From a virus: a stretch of DNA of 39,837 nt. Where the stretch lies: IMG/VR virus record IMGVR_UViG_3300046501_000546, positions 1 to 39,837 of that record; one strand, written 5' to 3'. The position numbers and the translations under genes were made by a program. Position 1 is the first letter of the stretch; each line of letters opens with the position of its first letter. This document shows positions 2,417-39,837 of this stretch, piece after piece. Below the pieces are notes generated by a model. The model was given only the letters and a program-made list of their open reading frames with translations, had not been told where the DNA came from and searched no databases.

Positions 2417-4156
2417 ATGTCGGAATTCATCACGGATAGTCAGGATGAACAAAGCTTTGAAGCGCTTTTGCGGGATGCTGATCAAATTCACGTTCCAATA
2501 TTCCAAAGAAACTATGTTTGGAAGCAAAAACAGTTAGATGAATTATGGACAGATATAAATCAGGTAAAATCTGAGATAGAAGAAATACAATTCATGGGGG
2601 CAATCGTTGCTTACGAGAAACCCCGTGGAGGTAGCACTGTTGGACGAATGAAAGCGCTAGAAATTGTCGATGGGCAACAGCGTGTTCTTACACTGTATAT
2701 ATTTGTTATGGCTATAGTCGAATTTCTTGCCCCTCTTGATAAGGAGGAAGCAATGGAGCTGGTAAGGGAGTTTTTGCTACTGACTCCTCGGCGCGGGCTT
2801 GAAATTAATACACGTATCGTTCCTGCTTTTGCTGATCGTAGTCAGTTTCGAGTTATTTGGGATAGAATAAATAGTCCAGATATTTTGCAGGATGAGTTAG
2901 AAGATTTTCATCTTCATCTCCCTCCTCCAAGTGGTGATGCAAGTGGCGAGTTAGTAAATCAATACCACAGGATATTGAGGTATTTGCGAAAAGAGTTACC
3001 ACAAGAGGATACGGAGCAAATTGAGTATCTTCGTGAAACTTTGGGTGTTTTGACGCGGCATCTATCATTTGTGCACTTGAAGCTCAACGATGCGTCGGCC
3101 GCTACAAAAATATTCGAACGGTTGAACTTTAGGGGTGTAAGGGTTGGAATTGTAGATTTAGTTCGAAACGAAATTTTTTCAAGTTTGGCGGGGGATCCTA
3201 TCGAAACGCAGCGCGTATTTGATCATGTGTGGAGACCTTTTGAGATTGCATTCAATGATCGATCAGAGACTTTCTTCTTTCCATATTGTTTGATTCAGGA
3301 TAGTAATACTAAGAAGTCTGAGTTGTTTATACAGTTAAGAGCTTCTTGGAAGGGGTTGACCCCACAAAAGATGATCGAGCATATGAAGCCTTTTCAGCAG
3401 CCATTTGTTGCAATTGATCAGTCAGGGCATCACCCAGGTAGTGCTGAAATATCGAAGTGTCTCGATCGCTTCGTACGTTTGCGGCGCCCTTCTTCTGTGT
3501 ATCCTTTTGTGATGTCGTTGTTGAAGTCGCATTCTGATTCTAAAATATCTGAATCCTCAGTAGTTCAGCTATTAAATGCATTGGAGTCTTTTCTAATTAG
3601 GCGGGCAATAGTTGGCTTGGAACCAACAGGTTTACATGCTCTATTTAAAGGGCTCTGGTTTCAGATGAAAAAACATACTGTGGCTGAATTTAAGCGTCAG
3701 ATCGCTAGTAGGCCGACTATACAATGGCCAAGTGATCTGGATGTTAAAAATGCTATTCTGAAGCGAAGCCTTGCCGGCGCTAATATATGTTCTTATTTGT
3801 TGGTAGAATATGATCGAGGCCTTAAGGGTGATAATCCTTCTTCTGTTTCTACTGTCGAGCATATTTTGCCGCAAACATATGACGAGGAGTCTGAGTGGGC
3901 CGAAGTGTTTAGTAAGGAACAGCATAAGCATATGAAGGACTTGTTAGCAAACGTGGTGCCCTTGTCTTCGCCGCTAAACTCATCTCTTCAAGATGTGGCT
4001 TACTCAGTAAAAAAAGTCAGATATCAAAAGGAATCCATGTTCACGACGCCTCGCGATCTTGCAAGTAGGTGGGTAAAATGGACTCCAAAGTCAATTGAGC
4101 AGCGTTCGATAGTGCTAGCTGATTGGGCAATCTCTCGCTGGGATCAATCGTTGTAA
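2417..4156 (+). CDS. DUF262/DUF1524 single-chain protein, GmrSD-like (modification-dependent restriction or SspE-like defence)
   Basis: 579 residues. The N-terminal DUF262 (GmrS-type) domain shows the FQRNYVW motif at 29-35 and the nucleotide-binding/hydrolysis motif DGQQR at 85-89. The C-terminus carries a DUF1524 His-Me finger nuclease motif: EHILPQ with H482, then LANVVPL with N512 and N521, then a VKKVRYQKE tail. Known members combining these domains are type IV GmrSD enzymes acting on modified phage DNA and the SspE effector of phosphorothioate systems; no Ssp modification genes are seen here, which favours a stand-alone GmrSD-like enzyme. The ATG at 2417 has GAGGGG a few bases upstream. 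The gene is visibly AT-rich compared with the late genes, sits between tRNA-Cys and the integrase, and has its own terminator, all signs of acquired cargo. Confidence 0.85.
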   Translation: MSEFITDSQDEQSFEALLRDADQIHVPIFQRNYVWKQKQLDELWTDINQVKSEIEEIQFMGAIVAYEKPRGGSTVGRMKALEIVDGQQRVLTLYIFVMAIVEFLAPLDKEEAMELVREFLLLTPRRGLEINTRIVPAFADRSQFRVIWDRINSPDILQDELEDFHLHLPPPSGDASGELVNQYHRILRYLRKELPQEDTEQIEYLRETLGVLTRHLSFVHLKLNDASAATKIFERLNFRGVRVGIVDLVRNEIFSSLAGDPIETQRVFDHVWRPFEIAFNDRSETFFFPYCLIQDSNTKKSELFIQLRASWKGLTPQKMIEHMKPFQQPFVAIDQSGHHPGSAEISKCLDRFVRLRRPSSVYPFVMSLLKSHSDSKISESSVVQLLNALESFLIRRAIVGLEPTGLHALFKGLWFQMKKHTVAEFKRQIASRPTIQWPSDLDVKNAILKRSLAGANICSYLLVEYDRGLKGDNPSSVSTVEHILPQTYDEESEWAEVFSKEQHKHMKDLLANVVPLSSPLNSSLQDVAYSVKKVRYQKESMFTTPRDLASRWVKWTPKSIEQRSIVLADWAISRWDQSL

Positions 4157-4236: not shown

Positions 4237-5310
4237 CTATTTAGTTGGCTTCACAATTTCCCCAACGCGTCGATATACTCTCTTTGTCATTTCCTGAGTT
4301 GAGTGTCCGAGCAAACGACTCGCCTCGGCGATATCCTCGATTTCGCTAGCTGCTTTTGGGCGGATGTCCCTAAACTGGAACTGACGGATGGTGGTGGCCA
4401 GAGTCGAGTTCCCTTCCGCCATCGCTTTGGTTGCGGCTGAATCTCTTGCTTCATCCCAGCGATTGCGCAACATGGCATAGCTCATGCGCAGCCCAGCCTG
4501 GTTGGTGATCAACCGGGAGGTTTTGATTCCGGCGGCGGATCTGCGATCGAACAGGGCATCAAGAAACACGCTCAGCTCTGTTGCCAGGGAGCCGTTGTGC
4601 AACCTGATCCTCAAGCGCTTTTCCGTTTTTCCTTGGCCGACCATCAGAAAACCGTTGCTGATATCGGTGTCTGACGTTTTGAGTACGTCACCTGGTCGCT
4701 GGCCAGTGAGATAAGCCAGATCCATCGCATCTTTGAGTTCTTGCGGCGCCTCGATGTAGACGGCTTTCCATACGATATCGCCAGCGTAATAATCCCGAGG
4801 TGTTTCCTGGTTACGGCGCAAGCCGAAGCATGGGTTTGCTTTCTCTGTCAGTCCCCACTCGCGGGCAAAAGTAAACATGGTGGACAGTAAGGCTATCTCT
4901 CGGTTGGCGCGCACCTTTGCCGTTCGGGCGTCACGATATTGCGCGATGACCTGCGGGGTGATGGCATCAAGAGGGGCGGACTCGAACGCTTTCCGTAATT
5001 GCCTTAGGCCTTTTACATAGTCCTCTTGGGTACCTTTCTTTAATTTTGGAATAACCTTCGATTCATAATCATCGAATAACCGGCCCATTAAGTGGGCCGG
5101 TTTGGGAATTGCTTTGCGGTCGAGTCGTGCCCATTCGATCTTGGCTTCGTCCAGGTCGCTGCCGAGCGGGATCTCGACACGGTTGCCGTCGGCATCTCGC
5201 CCGTTATAGTAGTAGCCCGTCCATATGGTGCCGCCTTTTCTTTTGCGGGTCCGCCGGATCATCCGTGGCGGCAGGTCTCGGTTTGCTGTTTTTTTTTGTC
5301 GCATCGTCAT
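4237..5310 (-). CDS. int: Phage tyrosine recombinase (integrase)
   Basis: 357 residues when started at the ATG (5308-5310) that overlaps the stop of the upstream gene as ATGA; a longer frame adds nine residues. The N-terminus is a basic arm-type DNA-binding region (RMIRRTRKRKGGTIW), followed by a core-binding domain. Catalytic residues visible are R205 (TGQRPGDV), R317 (in FRDIRPKAAS), H336 (LLGHS) and the nucleophile Y346 (VYRR). The usual first histidine of the HxxR box is R314, a variation that also occurs in active members. Role: site-specific integration and, with an accessory factor, excision. It is the last gene of the leftward operon and points to tRNA-Cys. Confidence 0.95.
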   Translation of the reverse strand: MTMRQKKTANRDLPPRMIRRTRKRKGGTIWTGYYYNGRDADGNRVEIPLGSDLDEAKIEWARLDRKAIPKPAHLMGRLFDDYESKVIPKLKKGTQEDYVKGLRQLRKAFESAPLDAITPQVIAQYRDARTAKVRANREIALLSTMFTFAREWGLTEKANPCFGLRRNQETPRDYYAGDIVWKAVYIEAPQELKDAMDLAYLTGQRPGDVLKTSDTDISNGFLMVGQGKTEKRLRIRLHNGSLATELSVFLDALFDRRSAAGIKTSRLITNQAGLRMSYAMLRNRWDEARDSAATKAMAEGNSTLATTIRQFQFRDIRPKAASEIEDIAEASRLLGHSTQEMTKRVYRRVGEIVKPTK

Positions 5311-5591
5311 CCCACTCGCGAAAGGTCGAGAGTCCAAGTCTCGGCTACGGCGTTGTTTGCCGTGGGTTTGACGCCGGCCAGTTTCAGTCGGGCATAAACC
5401 CGGCCGACGACTGGGCGTTGGGCTCCGGTCAGCACGAACTCCCAGTGATTGCTAGTCAGCCACTGACGCTGGCAGGACGGAATTTTGTAGCCGGTGATGG
5501 TGGCCAGCTCTTCGTCAGTGAGGGTTTCGCTGAGAAATTCTAAGGGCTGCCGCCCGATTGGTCTGATCGCTGCGGTGTGGTGTGTGGTCAT
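5307..5591 (-). CDS. DUF4224 domain protein, integrase-associated
   Basis: 94 residues, with GGAGG upstream of the ATG at 5591. The middle matches the DUF4224 pattern: FLSETLTDEELATITGYKIP, then QRQWLTSNHW. This small domain is found in phages directly upstream of integrases and resembles a DNA-binding (excisionase-like) fold, but its function is not settled. The stop overlaps the integrase start by 4 bp (ATGA), indicating translational coupling, so a role in recombination directionality is a reasonable inference. Confidence 0.8.
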   Translation of the reverse strand: MTTHHTAAIRPIGRQPLEFLSETLTDEELATITGYKIPSCQRQWLTSNHWEFVLTGAQRPVVGRVYARLKLAGVKPTANNAVAETWTLDLSRVG

Positions 5592-5696: not shown

Positions 5697-5939
5697 TCAG
5701 GCCGCGGCCTTCGTTGCTTGGGCGTCGAGGTAGTCGGCCAGGTTGTGCAGGTACACCACCGGCTTTGCCCGGGCTGAGCAGTGCAGGCGCGTCACGATCA
5801 GCTGAATACGGCCGGCCTTGATCTCGCTCAACAGGTAGCGGTCGGTGCGGATATGCGCGAAGTACTGTTCACGTACCGCCGTAAGCGACGGGCAGGGTGT
5901 GGCGAACTGTTTTCGAAGTTGATCGAGGGTGTTGCTCAT
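5697..5939 (-). CDS. PrtN-family (pyocin activator-like) protein
   Basis: 80 residues. The segment AVREQYFAHIRTDRYLLSEIKAGRI, followed by LIVTRL and a C-terminal VVYLHNLADYLDAQ, fits the PrtN domain, in which a short helical region is followed by HxxDLAxYLD. PrtN activates pyocin genes in P. aeruginosa after SOS de-repression. Here a shorter relative is embedded in the integrase operon of an intact prophage. It overlaps the upstream gene by 4 bp (ATGA). Likely role: a transcriptional regulator of phage or integrase functions (inference). Confidence 0.7.
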   Translation of the reverse strand: MSNTLDQLRKQFATPCPSLTAVREQYFAHIRTDRYLLSEIKAGRIQLIVTRLHCSARAKPVVYLHNLADYLDAQATKAAA

Positions 5940-6319
5940 GCTGCATCCTCCCCGAACCCCTCCGAGCGGCGCCCCAACTTCAGGCGGATCAATTCGGCCA
6001 GACCCTCTTTACTTTTGCCCATGCCGGCGGCGCAGACGTGGCCCTTTGCATCAGCAACAACGGCGCCGAAGGGATATTCGGGCGAGTTGGTCGGGGTGAC
6101 ATAGGCGATCTGACCTTCGTGGATCACGTCGTTGACGCAGCGGAAGACCTCGGCGAGTTCCAACGTGCGGCAAGGGATGTTGCCCAGCAGGTCAATGGCT
6201 TCGCTTGCGGCGCCGATCAGTGTGGCGCGGCTGACCACGCCGGGGCTGTCCAAGTAAATGGGGATCAGTCGCAGGGCGCCGAGGGCTTGGGTGTATGCAT
6301 TGAAGTAATTGGTTTTCAT
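5936..6319 (-). CDS. Phage protein of unknown function (127 aa)
   Basis: Start chosen at the ATG at 6319, which overlaps the KilAC gene stop by 4 bp; an in-frame extension to 6370 would overlap that gene further and is not favoured. The protein is soluble in appearance with no membrane segments. Segments such as EVFRCVNDVIHEGQIAYVTP and SKEGLAELIRLKLGR suggest a compact alpha/beta protein. No family is recognised. It is co-transcribed with integrase-operon regulators. Confidence 0.7.
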   Translation of the reverse strand: MKTNYFNAYTQALGALRLIPIYLDSPGVVSRATLIGAASEAIDLLGNIPCRTLELAEVFRCVNDVIHEGQIAYVTPTNSPEYPFGAVVADAKGHVCAAGMGKSKEGLAELIRLKLGRRSEGFGEDAA

Positions 6320-6591
6320 GCGGCGGCGTCCTTCTTCGTGATGGTGATTCCCAGCTTCTTGGCCAGCCAATCCACACCTTCTTCCTTCACCATCACCACG
6401 GAGTAGTGACGGTATTTGTTGATCGACGGGATCAAGGTGCTACGCGGGTCCGAGAACAGATAACCGCGGTCGCGGTGCTGGCTGGCAAGGTCGCCACTGC
6501 TGTTCAAGATGTCCAGTTCCCGCAGCCTGGTGCGGAAGGCACGGTTTTTGAGTCCGAGCAATGCGGCGGTTTCATCCAGGGTGCGGTTCAT
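6316..6591 (-). CDS. KilAC-domain protein, candidate antirepressor fragment
   Basis: 91 residues. The N-terminal part (TLDETAALLGLKNRAFRTRLRELDIL) and the following RGYLFSD, RHYSVVMVKEEGVDWLAKKLG segment fit the phage antirepressor KilAC domain, a winged-helix-like DNA-binding module. Full-size antirepressors normally have an extra N-terminal domain (BRO, AntA or Rha type); here the domain stands alone, so the protein may be a DNA-binding regulator rather than a repressor-binding one. The ATG at 6591 has GAGGA upstream; a longer in-frame start at 6717 overlaps the previous gene and is rejected. Confidence 0.75.
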   Translation of the reverse strand: MNRTLDETAALLGLKNRAFRTRLRELDILNSSGDLASQHRDRGYLFSDPRSTLIPSINKYRHYSVVMVKEEGVDWLAKKLGITITKKDAAA

Positions 6592-6601
6592 GGTGCTGTC
6601 C

Positions 6602-6868
6602 TCAGACCGGAACTGGTGTATTGGCGAGTTCTTGGATGAAGTCGCGCAGATGCAGGTGATTGGCCCTGTCATTGCGCCGCAGCTTGATGGTGTCTTGGCG
6701 ACCGGCCACCTCCACATGAACGACTGTGAGGGTGGGCGTGAACTCGACAGACAACTCTGCCTGAATCGTTTGTAGAGGCCGGCTCAGGCCGCACACAGCA
6801 TCGCCACCAACTTGGAGCATGTGGTGCAGGAGTTCCTGTCTCGCGAGAGGGATGGAGAACTTGTTCAT
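6602..6868 (-). CDS. Phage protein of unknown function (88 aa)
   Basis: Begins MNKFSIPLARQELLHHMLQ and ends ten bases before the KilAC gene start. No transmembrane segments or recognisable motif. A region of alternating hydrophobic residues (AELSVEFTPTLTVVHVEV) suggests beta structure. Its start overlaps the preceding gene by 4 bp (ATGA). Confidence 0.65.
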   Translation of the reverse strand: MNKFSIPLARQELLHHMLQVGGDAVCGLSRPLQTIQAELSVEFTPTLTVVHVEVAGRQDTIKLRRNDRANHLHLRDFIQELANTPVPV

Positions 6869-7062
6869 GCTACATCCCCCCCGAACGGGCTTGGCTCATC
6901 GCCGGATACGTCCGATTTTGCAGGCGCCAGGCGGCAACCCGGGGTGATGATCACCAGTAGACCGGTGAGTTTCTGGATGGCGTCAACCACCTGGGGGCTA
7001 GTGCATGCTGCGGGGTGCAGATACACCGGGCAGCGGGTTTGACTGTGCTGTGTGGTTTGCAT
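6865..7062 (-). CDS. Small phage protein, first gene of the integrase operon (65 aa)
   Basis: Begins MQTTQHSQTRCPVYLHP; a hydrophobic stretch (LTGLLVIITPGC) sits in the middle and the C-terminus is polar. It is the first gene after the operator-containing promoter at 7096-7124, with AGAGTACGAG-type purine-rich sequence before the start. Function unknown. It ends in an ATGA overlap with the next gene, so it is clearly part of the same transcription and translation unit. Confidence 0.6.
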   Translation of the reverse strand: MQTTQHSQTRCPVYLHPAACTSPQVVDAIQKLTGLLVIITPGCRLAPAKSDVSGDEPSPFGGDVA

Positions 7063-7095
7063 GTCTCGTACTCTTGGTGAGAGGTGTACGAAACA

Positions 7096-7137
7096 AAGTT
7101 AGCAATGGCTAATTGTATTTACAATAGCTTCCGCTAA
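7096..7137 (-). promoter_or_regulatory. Promoter of the integrase operon with two operator palindromes
   Basis: On the reverse strand, TTGTAA (7119-7124) is spaced 17 bp from TAACTT (7096-7101). Two palindromes of the form (T/A)TAGC-N4-GCTAA lie at 7099-7112 and 7124-7137, 25 bp centre to centre. The first covers the -10 and spacer, the second abuts the -35. The same sequence and geometry recur at the rightward promoter near the repressor start, so both are probably bound by the CI-like repressor (inference). Confidence 0.65.
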
Positions 7138-7155
7138 CTTATTTTCTTCTGGGCC

Positions 7156-7182
7156 AAAAAAAACCGCAAATGCGGTTTTTTT
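7156..7182 (-). terminator. Terminator of the repressor/SLATT transcript
   Basis: Stem AAAACCGCA/TGCGGTTTT with a two-base loop and T runs on both strands, 17 bases beyond the stop codon of the SLATT-like gene. The symmetric runs make it bidirectional. Confidence 0.85.
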
Positions 7183-7198
7183 GATGGATAGGTTGGAC

Positions 7199-7738
7199 TC
7201 AGGCTTTGGATGTATCCCAGTCAAACCAATGCGCTGTGGTGCGTTTGAACCATGAGAGTTTGCATAAGTAAGCGGCCGCTTGTTCTTTGGGGTACAAGGA
7301 TCTGATGACGTCATCCCTTGCTAAAAGTTCTAGCGCTGGCAGTGTCGGTGGTTCGTCAGCTTCGATGCGTCGAATGCGGCTATTGAGTTGACGCATCACA
7401 TCATCAGGAATAGGGCGCGCGCATCCCAGCATTTCGGCCTCAATGTCTAGATAGCGTTTTCGCAAGTCATTGTGAAGCCATGCCCTTTGACCTGTTCCTA
7501 CAACCAGGTCGGTTGCGGATGCGAGGGTGACTAGCAATGCTGATGTTGTTACAACAAATGTTGGGGCGTGTGTCAGCAATGATGTGACTGTGGCTGATCC
7601 AGAAATAACACCGACAAAGGCAGTGAATCGTCCCCAGCGCATAAAGAAAGCGGTTCTGCGCATGTGATAACGAATGCAGCGTTGAACATAGAACGCTAGT
7701 TCGTACAATTCTGTAGCTGCTTTATCGGTGTCAGTCAT
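7199..7738 (-). CDS. SLATT-like two-transmembrane protein, candidate immunity/exclusion effector
   Basis: 179 residues from the ATG at 7738. A helical N-terminus (ATELYELAFYVQRCIRYHMRR) precedes two transmembrane helices (about residues 36-54 and 60-80: FTAFVGVISGSATVTSLL and TFVVTTSALLVTLASA), then a long soluble helical tail. That order is characteristic of SLATT domains, membrane effectors associated with nucleotide-signalling and phage defence; the call is by architecture and is not certain. The start follows the stop of the proline-rich ORF by one base, so translation is coupled. A longer frame from 7825 overlaps that ORF and lacks a ribosome site. Located directly behind the repressor in the region normally expressed in lysogens, it is a candidate superinfection-exclusion or abortive-infection protein (inference). 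Confidence 0.6.
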   Translation of the reverse strand: MTDTDKAATELYELAFYVQRCIRYHMRRTAFFMRWGRFTAFVGVISGSATVTSLLTHAPTFVVTTSALLVTLASATDLVVGTGQRAWLHNDLRKRYLDIEAEMLGCARPIPDDVMRQLNSRIRRIEADEPPTLPALELLARDDVIRSLYPKEQAAAYLCKLSWFKRTTAHWFDWDTSKA

Positions 7739-7739
7739 T

Positions 7740-7901
7740 TCAAGGATCTCGGCGAGGTGGAGGCGGCACAGGGCGACTTTCGGAGATCGTATTTGGGCCG
7801 CTACCTTTCTCGCGGCTTTTGCCATCGTTGAAGCTATCCCGGCTCGGTTTTGGATGGGTTGGAGGAGTCGGACGTGGTGGCTGTTTAGGCTTGTCGTTCA
7901 T
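7740..7901 (-). CDS. Proline-rich small protein (53 aa) coupled to the SLATT-like gene
   Basis: The frame starts at 7901 with AAGGAG (7911-7916, reverse strand) nine bases upstream, the best ribosome site in this interval. The protein is basic and proline-rich (KPKQPPRPTPPTHPKPSR near the N-terminus, PVPPPPRRDP at the end), with SFNDGKSREKG in the middle. It is likely unstructured. The stop is one base before the SLATT-like start. It may be a partner, regulator or anchor of that membrane protein, or merely a leader for coupled translation. No family is recognised. Confidence 0.6.
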   Translation of the reverse strand: MNDKPKQPPRPTPPTHPKPSRDSFNDGKSREKGSGPNTISESRPVPPPPRRDP

Positions 7902-7945: not shown

Positions 7946-8596
7946 TCATTCAGTCACCTGGCTAGGGGGAACAATCCCGCCGACATAGTGAATTTTTACT
8001 ATGTCGCTTCGCGGAATATTCAACCTGCCATACCCGTCATTAACGGACATGAGGCTTACTTCATCGACGTTTGCGTAGAGCAATTCCTTGATCATGCACT
8101 GCCCGTTGGTGCAGTAGATAACGACGTATTCCCCTGGAACCAATTCATGCTTTGGCTCGCACCAAACCACCCAGCCATTGCGTATAGCTGGAGCTAACGC
8201 ATCCCCTTTGATGCGCAGCGAGTAAACAGCCGGATCTGAAGTGGGTACATCAACCCAGCCAGTTGCTGGTGCCAGCTCATCCCAAAATCCGTCTTGTTTC
8301 AATTGGGCTACTCCTTGAATGGGAGCCCGCCGGAAAGGGTTTATAAGACTTGGTGCCTGATCAATGCCAAGCGCCAAGCCGTCCTGGGCTGAGCGCGCGG
8401 GCATCAACAGTGTTCCGCCAGTAAGGCCGATCTTATCTTCAAGATTCTTTGCGGCCTTATCACCCAATGGCCTATGGCCATTCAGCAATTGGGAAAGGTA
8501 TGACGGATCTAGATTGTACCGGTCGGCAAACTCTTTGGTTTTGAGGTCGCCGATCAGGGCCCTGAGGGCTTCAACGCGGAGCTGGCTGATATTCAT
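7946..8596 (-). CDS. CI-like phage repressor with S24/LexA-type C-terminus lacking the catalytic serine
   Basis: 216 residues. The N-terminal helix-turn-helix spans about residues 19-50 (KTKEFADRYNLDPSYLSQLL). The C-terminal domain is of the S24 peptidase fold. The position of the nucleophile, normally in a GDSM motif, reads GDAL with A133, while the general-base lysine K170 (MIKEL) is kept at the family's usual spacing of 37 residues. No Ala-Gly or Cys-Gly cleavage bond is apparent in the hinge (RRAPIQGVAQL). Self-cleavage is therefore unlikely. Role: repressor of the two operator-bearing promoters. Divergent from the Cro-like gene. Confidence 0.9.
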   Translation of the reverse strand: MNISQLRVEALRALIGDLKTKEFADRYNLDPSYLSQLLNGHRPLGDKAAKNLEDKIGLTGGTLLMPARSAQDGLALGIDQAPSLINPFRRAPIQGVAQLKQDGFWDELAPATGWVDVPTSDPAVYSLRIKGDALAPAIRNGWVVWCEPKHELVPGEYVVIYCTNGQCMIKELLYANVDEVSLMSVNDGYGRLNIPRSDIVKIHYVGGIVPPSQVTE

Positions 8597-8615: not shown

Positions 8616-8672
8616 TTAGCATTTTGTAAATTGCAATCAGCTATTGTTAATGACGTTAGCGGCTGCTATCTT
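8616..8672 (+). promoter_or_regulatory. Rightward early promoter and operators (PR-like), overlapping the repressor promoter
   Basis: Rightward promoter: TTGTTA (8644-8649), 17 bp, TATCTT (8667-8672). A clear palindrome TTAGC-GGCT-GCTAT (8656-8669) overlaps the -10. Degenerate copies lie at 8631-8644 (one good half-site GCTAT) and 8616-8629 (TTAGC with a weak partner), centred 25 and 40 bp upstream. A leftward repressor promoter may use TTAACA (8650-8645) and TACAAA (8628-8623) with 16 bp spacing. The geometry matches the integrase-operon promoter. Confidence 0.65.
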
Positions 8673-8692
8673 TTTGCGAAACGGAGGTGCAC

Positions 8693-8920
8693 ATGAGCTT
8701 GCATGCATACATAAAGACTCTTGACAAAACAGCGTTGGCTGCTCTGGCGTTGCGATGTGATACGACTGCGGGTCAGCTCAAGCAGATCGCATATGGCAAC
8801 CGTCGTGCTAGTGGCGGCTTGGCCGTTTCCATCGAGCGTGAAACGCAGGGGAAGGTCACCTGCGAACAGCTTCGCCCCGAGATTGATTGGGCTTATCTGC
8901 GCGGCTCTCAGGCCGCATAA
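8693..8920 (+). CDS. Cro/YdaS-like helix-turn-helix regulator
   Basis: 75 residues. GGAGG (8683-8687) lies five bases before the ATG at 8693, which decides the start. The sequence (LHAYIKTLDKTALAALALRC, then TTAGQLKQIAYGNRRASGGL) fits the YdaS/Cro-type helix-turn-helix of phage early regulators, and the C-terminal QLRPEIDWAYLRG is a common ending in this group. It is the first gene from the rightward early promoter and is divergent from the repressor, so it probably acts as the Cro counterpart. Confidence 0.85.
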   Translation: MSLHAYIKTLDKTALAALALRCDTTAGQLKQIAYGNRRASGGLAVSIERETQGKVTCEQLRPEIDWAYLRGSQAA

Positions 8921-9059
8921 AGGGTGCCGGGTTGGGGCCTCTCACCAAAGAATCCCCCAGCCCGGCTACGACGATACACAGCACATGCACATCGGTCGTA
9001 GTCGTAGGATAGGTCGTACCTATTCTTATGGCTAGGCCGTAAATGGGGAATTTACGGTT
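8921..9059 (+). other. Leader before the CII-like gene; stem-loop and short repeats
   Basis: No gene is seen. CTACGAC (8966-8972) can pair with GTCGTAG (8995-9001), and GTCGTA recurs at 8995 and nearby, giving a small repetitive stem-loop region between the Cro-like and CII-like genes. It could be a tR1-like termination or antitermination site, but there is no T run, so this is only a suggestion. Confidence 0.25.
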
Positions 9060-9548
9060 ATGAGTAGCTCAAATCAGTTGCCGGCCAATGGGCCGGTTCT
9101 TTCGCTGCGTAAAGCGCTATATCGGGCAGGTCATGATTATCGGGGCGGTGTGACCTCGCTCGCGTTGGACATGGTCATCGACTACGACACCCTCCAGAAG
9201 AAACTCAAGCACGACGAAGAACGCCGCTGGCTGGATCCTGATGAGCTTGAAGAGATCATTCGACTGACCGCCAACCCACTGCTGCTTGATGCCTTAATGC
9301 GTCCTGCTGGGATGGTCTGGTACAAGCCCGAACCGGCGGCACCTACCAAACAGGCGCTACTCGCAGTGAGTCGTCTGCTGCATGAAACAGGTGTTTTCGT
9401 TTCGAGCATGCATGAGGGGGCGGCTGACAACATCTGGGAGCCACATGAAGTAGCGTTGCTGGAAAAGCACGGCGCTGATGTGATTCGTAAGGTGTTGGGC
9501 ATCATGGCCGGTGCTCGGCAAGCGATGGAGGATCGCCTGAATGGATGA
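9060..9548 (+). CDS. Phage regulatory protein CII family
   Basis: 162 residues, starting at the ATG at 9060 after a GGGG-containing leader. The N-terminal half has an HTH region (YRGGVTSLALDMVIDYDTLQKKL) followed by DELEEIIRLTANPLLLDALMRPAGMVW, the pattern of the CII-type regulators (P2/186-like phage family) that govern early lysogeny decisions. The C-terminal part is helical (HEVALLEKHGADVIRKVLGIM). It overlaps the zinc-finger gene by 8 bp. Confidence 0.8.
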   Translation: MSSSNQLPANGPVLSLRKALYRAGHDYRGGVTSLALDMVIDYDTLQKKLKHDEERRWLDPDELEEIIRLTANPLLLDALMRPAGMVWYKPEPAAPTKQALLAVSRLLHETGVFVSSMHEGAADNIWEPHEVALLEKHGADVIRKVLGIMAGARQAMEDRLNG

Positions 9549-37899: not shown

Positions 37900-38862
37900 T
37901 TATTGTATGTTTGCATTGCTCAATTTTTTCCAAATCCAGCTTAGGGTGCCGATATAAGGGATTATTGTTATATATAAAAGTAGATAGTTTAGTTCTTTAG
38001 GCCATTTAACGCTGTAATCGGCTTGTATGCTTAATAATACTGGGGGTAAAAAAACGCCAGTTGTAAGGAGCAGTGCAACGACGCCTATGGCTTTCATGGT
38101 TGTTTTTTTTATTTGAAAGTGGGAGTTAAATAAGTTGTAGTTTTCTACTGCGGAGCGAAGTTCAATGAGAGTGCTGTCCCTATATCTCACTACCCCCTCG
38201 AAGCCATTTCGAATAATGCTCTCGTAATCAATTGTAGGTAGTGGGTTGTTTTCATAGTATTTTGCCCAGATGGCGGCTCTCTCTTCTGGTAATATAGTTG
38301 GATTCTGTTCTAGTTCTTTATGTTGTTTTTCGATGTTTGCTTGTTTTTCTTGTAGGGTTGTTAGTTTTGCTACGTTTAAAATATCGTCTTTAGATTGTCT
38401 CCATATAAAAGCAAAGGCACTTAGGCGGAGTGATATTTCGCTGAGTCTTTCATCGTCTACTAGGTTTGGAGTTGGTTTTAATGTCTTTGACGTATTTGGG
38501 TTGGTGGTCGCTTTTATGGAAAATGGAGGTGAGAGGTAAAGAAGTCCGAATAGTCTGCAAAGACTCTCGCATATTTCTTTGTTTGGTTCGTTTTTGATAA
38601 TAAACCATTGTTGTTTTATAATGGTTTTGCATGTTTCATATTCTAGGACTCCATCTGTTAATAGTGGGTCATTAGCCATGATAGAGAATGTGTTTACATA
38701 AAACGCAAAATTTGTCGCGTCTTTGGATGTTCTTTCGAGTCTAATTCGAGCTTCTTGAATTTTCTGATAAGCATATATTGCATACGCAGAATAAAAAGCG
38801 GCACCTATGCCAATCAGTGTGGAGTGGATAGAAGGAAGGGTCGTTAAAATTGCTGAGTCCAT
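37900..38862 (-). CDS. AT-rich membrane protein of unknown function (320 aa)
   Basis: One N-terminal membrane helix (about residues 12-33, STLIGIGAAFYSAYAIYAY), a long soluble region with coiled-coil potential (TTLQEKQANIEKQHKELEQN), and two C-terminal membrane helices (IGVVALLLTTGVFLPPVLLS and LLLYITIIPYIGTLSWIW). AAGGCAG lies before the start. It is transcribed against the late genes and is AT-rich with codon use unlike them, so it is likely horizontally acquired cargo. No family is recognised; phage exclusion or defence is a hypothesis drawn only from the location. Confidence 0.75.
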   Translation of the reverse strand: MDSAILTTLPSIHSTLIGIGAAFYSAYAIYAYQKIQEARIRLERTSKDATNFAFYVNTFSIMANDPLLTDGVLEYETCKTIIKQQWFIIKNEPNKEICESLCRLFGLLYLSPPFSIKATTNPNTSKTLKPTPNLVDDERLSEISLRLSAFAFIWRQSKDDILNVAKLTTLQEKQANIEKQHKELEQNPTILPEERAAIWAKYYENNPLPTIDYESIIRNGFEGVVRYRDSTLIELRSAVENYNLFNSHFQIKKTTMKAIGVVALLLTTGVFLPPVLLSIQADYSVKWPKELNYLLLYITIIPYIGTLSWIWKKLSNANIQ

Positions 38863-39085: not shown

Positions 39086-39837
39086 TCATCGAAATAGCGC
39101 TTTGGTGACGGGGCCGGTGTACATCCAGACAGTATCCTCTCCCTTGCCTCTCCAAGGAATTGCTACTGGGGGATTGGTGTGACACATGATAATTTCTTTA
39201 TCTGTAACTACGATCGCGGAGTTTCCCTCGGGCCAGATTCCTTGTATTTTTATGAGGCCAGGTTTTAGCACCTCGATGTCTAATATTATCAAGGTGCCAT
39301 TGGCGCCGTACTCGGGGTCTTTTCTTTGCATTAAAAATAATGCCATGGCAGGAAGGTAATATCTTGATGTTGGGCCTGTTATTGTTATTTTTCCGGGGCG
39401 CTGTTCAATTCCTATATCTTTGTCTTTAATTACTTCGATGTTGTTGTCGGTGATTTTTAGAATGGTCTTTCCGTCTCTGTCGGTAAAGGTGGAGCTAACG
39501 CTTAGCCATCCATTTTTTACGGAAAAACTGAGTTTGTTTTCGCTGGATAAATCAAAAGTTATTACGGTGTTTTCGCCTTCTCGCGCAATTGCAATTGATC
39601 CAAGCAGTATCTTTGGACTGCCGCCGGGTTCAACGTATACATGGCTGTATAGTTTTTCCGGCTCGCTTGCTCTCTCGATTCCTTTCCATCTGTATAGGGT
39701 TTCATCGTCAATGATTAGAGTCCCATGATGGCATGCGTCGTGACAGGCTGGACAGACAGCGATCATGTGTTCTTCGTTGTGACTGCGGTAAACAGACCAC
39801 TGTTTTATATGGTGGATTTCTGATCTTGTGTTGCTGC
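39086..39837 (-). CDS. HNH endonuclease-domain protein, N-terminus cut by window end
   Basis: The frame stays open to the window edge. It reads SEIHHIKQWSVYRSHNEEHM and then IAVCPACHDACHHG, an HNH motif (EIHH, N, CxxCHxxCHH). About 200 further residues contain beta-rich sequence (EGENTVITFDLSSENKLSFS, KTILKITDNNIEVIKDKDIG) of unknown role. It could be a phage or island nuclease with a sensor-like C-terminal domain. An in-frame ATG inside the HNH motif (39766) is not the true start. AT-rich like the preceding gene. Confidence 0.7.
   Translation of the reverse strand, partial: SNTRSEIHHIKQWSVYRSHNEEHMIAVCPACHDACHHGTLIIDDETLYRWKGIERASEPEKLYSHVYVEPGGSPKILLGSIAIAREGENTVITFDLSSENKLSFSVKNGWLSVSSTFTDRDGKTILKITDNNIEVIKDKDIGIEQRPGKITITGPTSRYYLPAMALFLMQRKDPEYGANGTLIILDIEVLKPGLIKIQGIWPEGNSAIVVTDKEIIMCHTNPPVAIPWRGKGEDTVWMYTGPVTKALFR

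Follow-up and report, generated by a model that had tools for sequence, protein, structure and literature searches.

How does lysogeny end in a phage whose repressor seems unable to cut itself? This question is raised by a CI-like repressor gene found in a viral DNA of 39,837 nt (IMG/VR record IMGVR_UViG_3300046501_000546), the whole stretch of which is referred to here as the window. The open reading frame (7946-8596) lies on the minus strand, which the initial annotation of this DNA had left unstated, and it comprises 216 codons from an ATG start, encoding a protein of 216 aa. The translated protein matched Peptidase_S24 in Pfam (PF00717; E = 7e-12, 45 bits against a cut-off of 23.3) and a PHROG of transcriptional repressors (E = 7e-19), and its N-terminus matched HTH_3 under the family cut-off (E = 0.0013). 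No match was obtained with the repressor in NCBIfam, and a search of solved structures using the repressor as a single sequence returned weak HTH matches only. A family profile of 39 relatives matched the full-length lambda repressor (E = 9e-8). In the alignment of this profile to lambda CI, position 133 corresponds to the nucleophile serine, position 170 to the dyad lysine and positions 99-100 to the Ala-Gly cleavage site. The same register was obtained by alignment to E. coli LexA.

These alignments agree with the residues originally proposed from the sequence of the window. Codon 133 (8198-8200, minus strand) is GCG, which places an alanine in the nucleophile column within the motif GDAL (surrounding sequence KGDALAPAIRNGW). 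No other serine aligns with this column, and a different serine was accordingly rejected as nucleophile. Codon 170 (8087-8089, minus strand) is AAG, and the lysine that it encodes, within MIKELLY, is retained at the expected spacing of 37 residues from Ala133. The hinge, in which no clear Ala-Gly bond had been recognized, presents Leu99-Lys100 (8297-8302, minus strand) at the scissile position. Among the features of self-cleaving repressors, the general-base lysine is consequently present, and both the nucleophile serine and the glycine at P1' are absent.

We modeled the repressor with AlphaFold2, using 39 sequences from the window and the related loci. In the model, pLDDT exceeded 90 for most of the C-terminal domain and confidence was low in the hinge (residues 68-85); the pTM was 0.58. 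Comparison of the model to the PDB with Foldseek (E < 1e-3) recovered LexA (with its S119A and G85D mutants among the entries), lambda CI, the repressor of 186 and a lambda-186 hybrid; the best E-value, 7e-8, fell in the set formed by the lambda-186 hybrid, lambda CI and LexA. By sequence and by predicted structure, the protein has the S24/LexA-CI fold, with an HTH at its N-terminus, but lacks two features by which self-cleaving S24 repressors are defined.

Ser133 is missing from each of the 13 distinct close relatives of the repressor (74-88% identity): twelve carry an alanine, one carries a threonine and none carries a serine. These relatives were found in IMG/VR contigs and in Pseudomonas genomes (Pseudomonas sp. 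HMWF021, P. fluorescens PfAR1 and one more from a genus search). Ser133 is present in the next relatives, at 60-64% identity. Codon 133 of the close relatives is GCG, GCA, GCC or GCT, which represent all four alanine codons, or ACA. A loss common to 13 distinct relatives and encoded by four alanine codons rules out a sequencing error or a single recent mutation. The initial annotation had pointed out that GCG is one base away from TCG. This is true but misleading, since serine is encoded by TCA, TCT or TCC in the nearest Ser-bearing relatives and since the alanine state has been kept while synonymous sites neared saturation. Lys170 is invariant in the close relatives, where it is encoded by AAA or AAG. 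Its apparent replacement by Ile or Phe in some distant relatives was rejected as a one-column alignment shift, the motif in these proteins being TFKKL or TIKRL.

We then estimated dN/dS within the Ala clade (Nei-Gojobori method with Jukes-Cantor correction). Ratios of 0.048 for the HTH, 0.44 for the hinge and 0.044 for the C-terminal domain were obtained, and they are rough because synonymous differences reach 0.61-0.75 in both folded domains. The low values in the HTH and in the C-terminal domain indicate that the protein is in use and point to strong purifying selection on the C-terminal domain despite a predicted dead enzyme. They also bear on the idea that the prophage is decaying and that the missing serine reflects the degeneration of an unneeded gene. 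The loss of active-site residues is a common sign of decay and the evidence on the viability of this phage is indirect; however, the probability of this scenario appears close to negligible, because the loss is common to thirteen distinct relatives with four synonymous codons at Ala133, because ratios of 0.04-0.05 in both folded domains contradict it, and because the integrase, terminase and tail ORFs are intact. The loss of catalysis alone does not account for the retention of Lys170, for which the simplest guess is a structural or binding role. A more specific proposal would be that the dead peptidase domain acts as a receiver, with a small molecule, or else a dedicated antagonist, as the ligand of its Ala133/Lys170 pocket, such that induction would respond to a signal other than DNA damage. 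If true, this would explain the strong selection acting on the lysine and on the rest of the domain after catalysis was lost, but we regard this proposal as improbable.

The nucleophile is not the only part of the cleavage apparatus that has changed in the Ala clade. Ser-bearing relatives with a comparable hinge present Leu-Gly or Met-Gly at positions 99-100; in the Ala clade, the first of these positions is Leu or Val and the second is Lys, Asn or Ser. Across 105 comparable C-terminal domains, 88 possess both the serine and the glycine, 16 possess neither, one combines an alanine with the glycine (L134) and none has the serine without the glycine. The association is very strong when kinship is ignored (Fisher's test, p = 5e-18), and it cannot reach significance when kinship is allowed for, as the loss events are too few. 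On a tree built without the scored columns, parsimony yielded at least two losses. The first maps to the Ala group, near which L125 (Ala, Leu-Glu) and L134 are placed on long branches, and the second to L033 (Gly133, Met-Asp), which is the same contig as L266. With an alanine at the nucleophile position and yet a conserved Leu-Gly, L134 would fit a scenario in which the serine was lost before the glycine. The rule is not absolute, since one repressor of the wider set (L319) combines the serine with Leu-Ser. In two more distant repressors, L275 (ORF 2721-3479) and L278 (ORF 2668-3486), the dyad lysine is replaced by an arginine and Ala-Ala is found at the cleavage site.

The cleavage of LexA is abolished by the change of its serine to alanine, and by the change of glycine to aspartate at P1', the latter (G85D) being the lexA3 mutation. 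The lexA3 protein has been called non-cleavable (PMC3121763). The loss of autocleavage in the repressor of the window is strongly supported by these sequence comparisons. Because the nucleophile and the P1' glycine have both been lost across an otherwise conserved clade, our results support the earlier suggestion that the induction of this prophage probably does not rely on SOS autocleavage. Alternatively, the repressor might still be cleaved: a different serine in the same chain could serve, or a second S24 protein (LexA or a UmuD-like protein, for example) could act in trans. The conservation of Lys170 would be compatible with residual cleavage, and some related phages encode a UmuD-like S24 protein with intact-looking dyad residues. 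The absence of the P1' glycine nevertheless removes the substrate site too, which argues against cutting in cis as well as in trans, and the nucleophile column is matched by no other serine of the repressor. Residual cleavage is, in our view, very unlikely.

The genomic context of the gene is that of an immunity region, with a divergent cI/cro layout and operator-like palindromes on both sides. Rightward genes encode a YdaS-type DNA-binding protein in the cro position (8687-8920, plus strand; PF15943, E = 2e-11; PHROG transcriptional repressor), a CII-like regulator (Phage_CP76; 9060-9548, plus strand, from family matches), a DksA-type zinc finger protein and a primase. In the leftward direction, we identified an excisionase or PrtN-family protein (5697-5939, minus strand, from family matches) and a tyrosine integrase (4237-5337, minus strand; Pfam and PHROG). 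A perfect 12-bp inverted repeat followed by a T run (7157-7182) separates the cI unit from the leftward operon and is likely to act as a terminator. Searching for the pattern GTTAGC-N4-GCTAAC with at most two mismatches yielded six occurrences in the window for 1.0 expected, a number that was reached in none of 100 shuffles. Three of the six are found in regulatory positions: GTTAGCGGCTGCTATC between cI and cro (O_R, 8655-8670), and GTTAGCAATGGCTAAT (7098-7113) and AATAGCTTCCGCTAAC (7123-7138) before the leftward operon (O_L). Related, somewhat diverged palindromes occupy the same places across the Ala clade and in the Ser-bearing sisters with a similar N-terminal domain. Based on the position, symmetry and conservation of these palindromes, we infer that CI binds TTAGC-N4-GCTAA at O_R and O_L, although Cro could be the protein that binds them instead.

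The sequences show which residues occupy the cleavage positions and that these are fixed in the clade, together with a fold that is conserved and palindromes that recur. We consider it very probable that a temperate Pseudomonas phage encodes here a CI-type repressor that works but whose self-cleavage has been disabled twice, and that lysogeny is ended by another route. The repressor would most likely dimerise through its LexA/CI-fold C-terminal domain and bind the palindromes of O_R and of O_L, the latter preceding the leftward xis/int operon. Self-cleavage would be permanently disabled by the replacement of the nucleophile serine by alanine or threonine and of the P1' glycine by lysine, asparagine or serine, RecA-stimulated cleavage would be absent, and DNA damage probably cannot switch the virus on in the textbook way. 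If self-cleavage is indeed disabled, it follows that lysogeny must be terminated without cleavage, possibly through a protein antagonist, encoded by the phage itself or by a co-resident phage, or else through Cro-driven or spontaneous switching. Any reading of the induction route assumes that the prophage is inducible, and SOS may act indirectly.

We see the chances that a protein antagonist ends lysogeny as evenly balanced. Precedents include the Gifsy antirepressors, which act on non-cleavable repressors (PMC3121763), and the MpaR metalloprotease, an antagonist that originates from a second element in Listeria (PMC6872733). A possible candidate antagonist of CI is the product of a leftward-operon ORF (6316-6717, minus strand; probable start inside the ORF) located behind the O_L palindromes, which presented a weak ANT/KilAC match (PHROG Ant, E = 5.5e-5; Pfam ANT under the cut-off). 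This gene is common to the Ser-bearing sister phages and present in most Ala phages, but it was not detected in the vicinity of the Ala repressors L010, L012 and L013. It is also possible, albeit rather doubtful, that SOS induces the prophage indirectly through a LexA-repressed antirepressor that lifts CI off the DNA, and that would be encoded by the phage outside its immunity region or by another prophage. This would refine the preferred explanation rather than oppose it. Indirect induction is a documented solution for other non-cleavable repressors, as in the case of Tum of 186 (PMC7708051) and of Gifsy in Salmonella (PMC3121763), and LexA boxes were observed near the right ends of some Ala-repressor phages. 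However, neither a LexA box above chance nor a LexA-controlled antirepressor gene was found in the window, which may be incomplete at its right end. The best LexA-like box of three Ala-repressor phages, located near one phage end, lies between a umuDC-like operon and a SRAP gene and does not adjoin an antirepressor. Moreover, no gene was found to track the alanine state across 11 related phages (5 with Ala, 1 with Gly and 5 with Ser repressors).

A LexA-fold phage repressor without autocleavage fits a known kind, of which CI of phage 186 (PDB 2fjr, 7jvt) is an example. Like the present repressor, whose status is read from its sequence, 186 CI is not inactivated by autocleavage and it was among the best fold matches, but whole-chain similarity is low (14-16% identity in fold alignments) and inactivation of 186 CI depends on Tum, an antirepressor under LexA control (PMC7708051), a counterpart of which was not found here. 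Lambda CI (PDB 3bdn) shares the HTH and the S24-fold domain and was aligned over almost its full length, and its immunity region shares the divergent cI/cro layout with operators, here operator-like sequences, on both sides. In contrast, lambda CI possesses the Ser-Lys dyad and an Ala-Gly bond where Ala-Lys and Leu-Lys are found here. The same two positions are altered in LexA S119A and G85D (PDB 1jhh, 1jhf), both recovered among the fold matches, but those changes were made separately, in the laboratory, in a protein that can be cleaved, whereas here they occur together and naturally. Prophage repressors of the Gifsy, N15 and TP901-1 types are likewise not inactivated by autocleavage (PMC3121763, PMC10432266, PMC8516035). 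The Gifsy repressors, however, are 136 aa long without a cleavage signature, whereas a full and conserved S24-fold domain is kept in the present protein. Repressors of the non-cleavable kind are common, since a 2023 study in Nature examined 271 CI proteins encoded by linear plasmid-like phages and labelled 210 as putatively non-autoproteolytic (PMC10432266).

What is new is the Ala clade itself, with its paired loss of the nucleophile and of the scissile glycine and a matched sister predicted to be cleavable; we found no description of this clade in the open-access literature. The two groups, which share their type of immunity region and operators, constitute a natural matched pair in which proteins with Ser and Leu-Gly are predicted to be cleavable and proteins with Ala and Leu-Lys are predicted not to be. 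This pair allows a direct test of the contribution of self-cleavage to prophage induction. The joint loss of the serine and the glycine, which occurred at least twice, also offers a simple sequence rule to predict prophages that are blind to DNA damage via repressor cleavage.

Immunity modules are swapped freely among the 80 loci with related terminases that we compared. The repressor profile yielded 44 hits in these loci: 5 belong to the Ala/Thr clade, 1 carries a glycine (L266), 34 carry a serine and 4 are seemingly unrelated to S24. Given this exchange and the predominance of serine among the hits, we rejected a link between non-cleavability and the phage backbone. Separately, a UmuD-like S24 gene was found together with a LexA-like box and an SRAP gene in divergent orientation in L223 (5435-7160), L231 (1-1729) and L230 (18639-19067), with a UmuC-like gene after the UmuD-like gene in L223 and L231. 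The cluster is located far from the immunity region and represents SOS-linked repair genes carried by phages whose repressor is predicted to be blind to SOS cleavage.

Several accessory genes were also observed in the window. Directly downstream of cI, a 208-aa protein of PHROG 11791 (unknown function; 7199-7825, minus strand) has counterparts in only two of the phages compared, L004 and L130, and it is likely cargo expressed in the lysogen. Between a tRNA-Cys (2087-2160) and the integrase, a GmrSD-type restriction-like protein with DUF262 and DUF1524 domains (2417-4156, plus strand) matched the Orf5/HEC-06 models of PADLOC and is probably a defence gene at the edge of the prophage. A direct repeat of the end of the tRNA-Cys was not found elsewhere in the window. 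Beyond the lysis genes, the right end presents minus-strand genes at 37900-38862 and 39086-39766, which yielded no significant family matches and were not found in the 11 related phages; these are likely cargo of unknown function.

Finally, we observed a strongly covarying RNA hairpin, with an apical UCU-CACCA(N)-AGA and a freely variable outer stem, of which the region between cro and cII contains one to three copies. In the window, it is located at 8922-8969 (plus strand), and a related hairpin is found at 7062-7095 (minus strand) before the first leftward gene; others are present in L007, L008, L009, L018, L222, L224, L226, L233, L236 and additional loci. Across 20 copies, 10 of the 12 pairs of the outer helix have changed on both sides, and the covariation score was 0.436, whereas shuffles gave 0.169 and slid controls did not exceed 0.16. 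Rfam returned no match at the hairpin in the window. The positions of these hairpins after both early promoters recall nutL and nutR of lambda, and they could be antitermination or translational control elements. A model of the hairpin found matches in 8 of 59 Pseudomonas genomes, and the eight best matches, one per genome, each preceded a CII homologue by roughly 1 kb at most, even where cI and cro were different.
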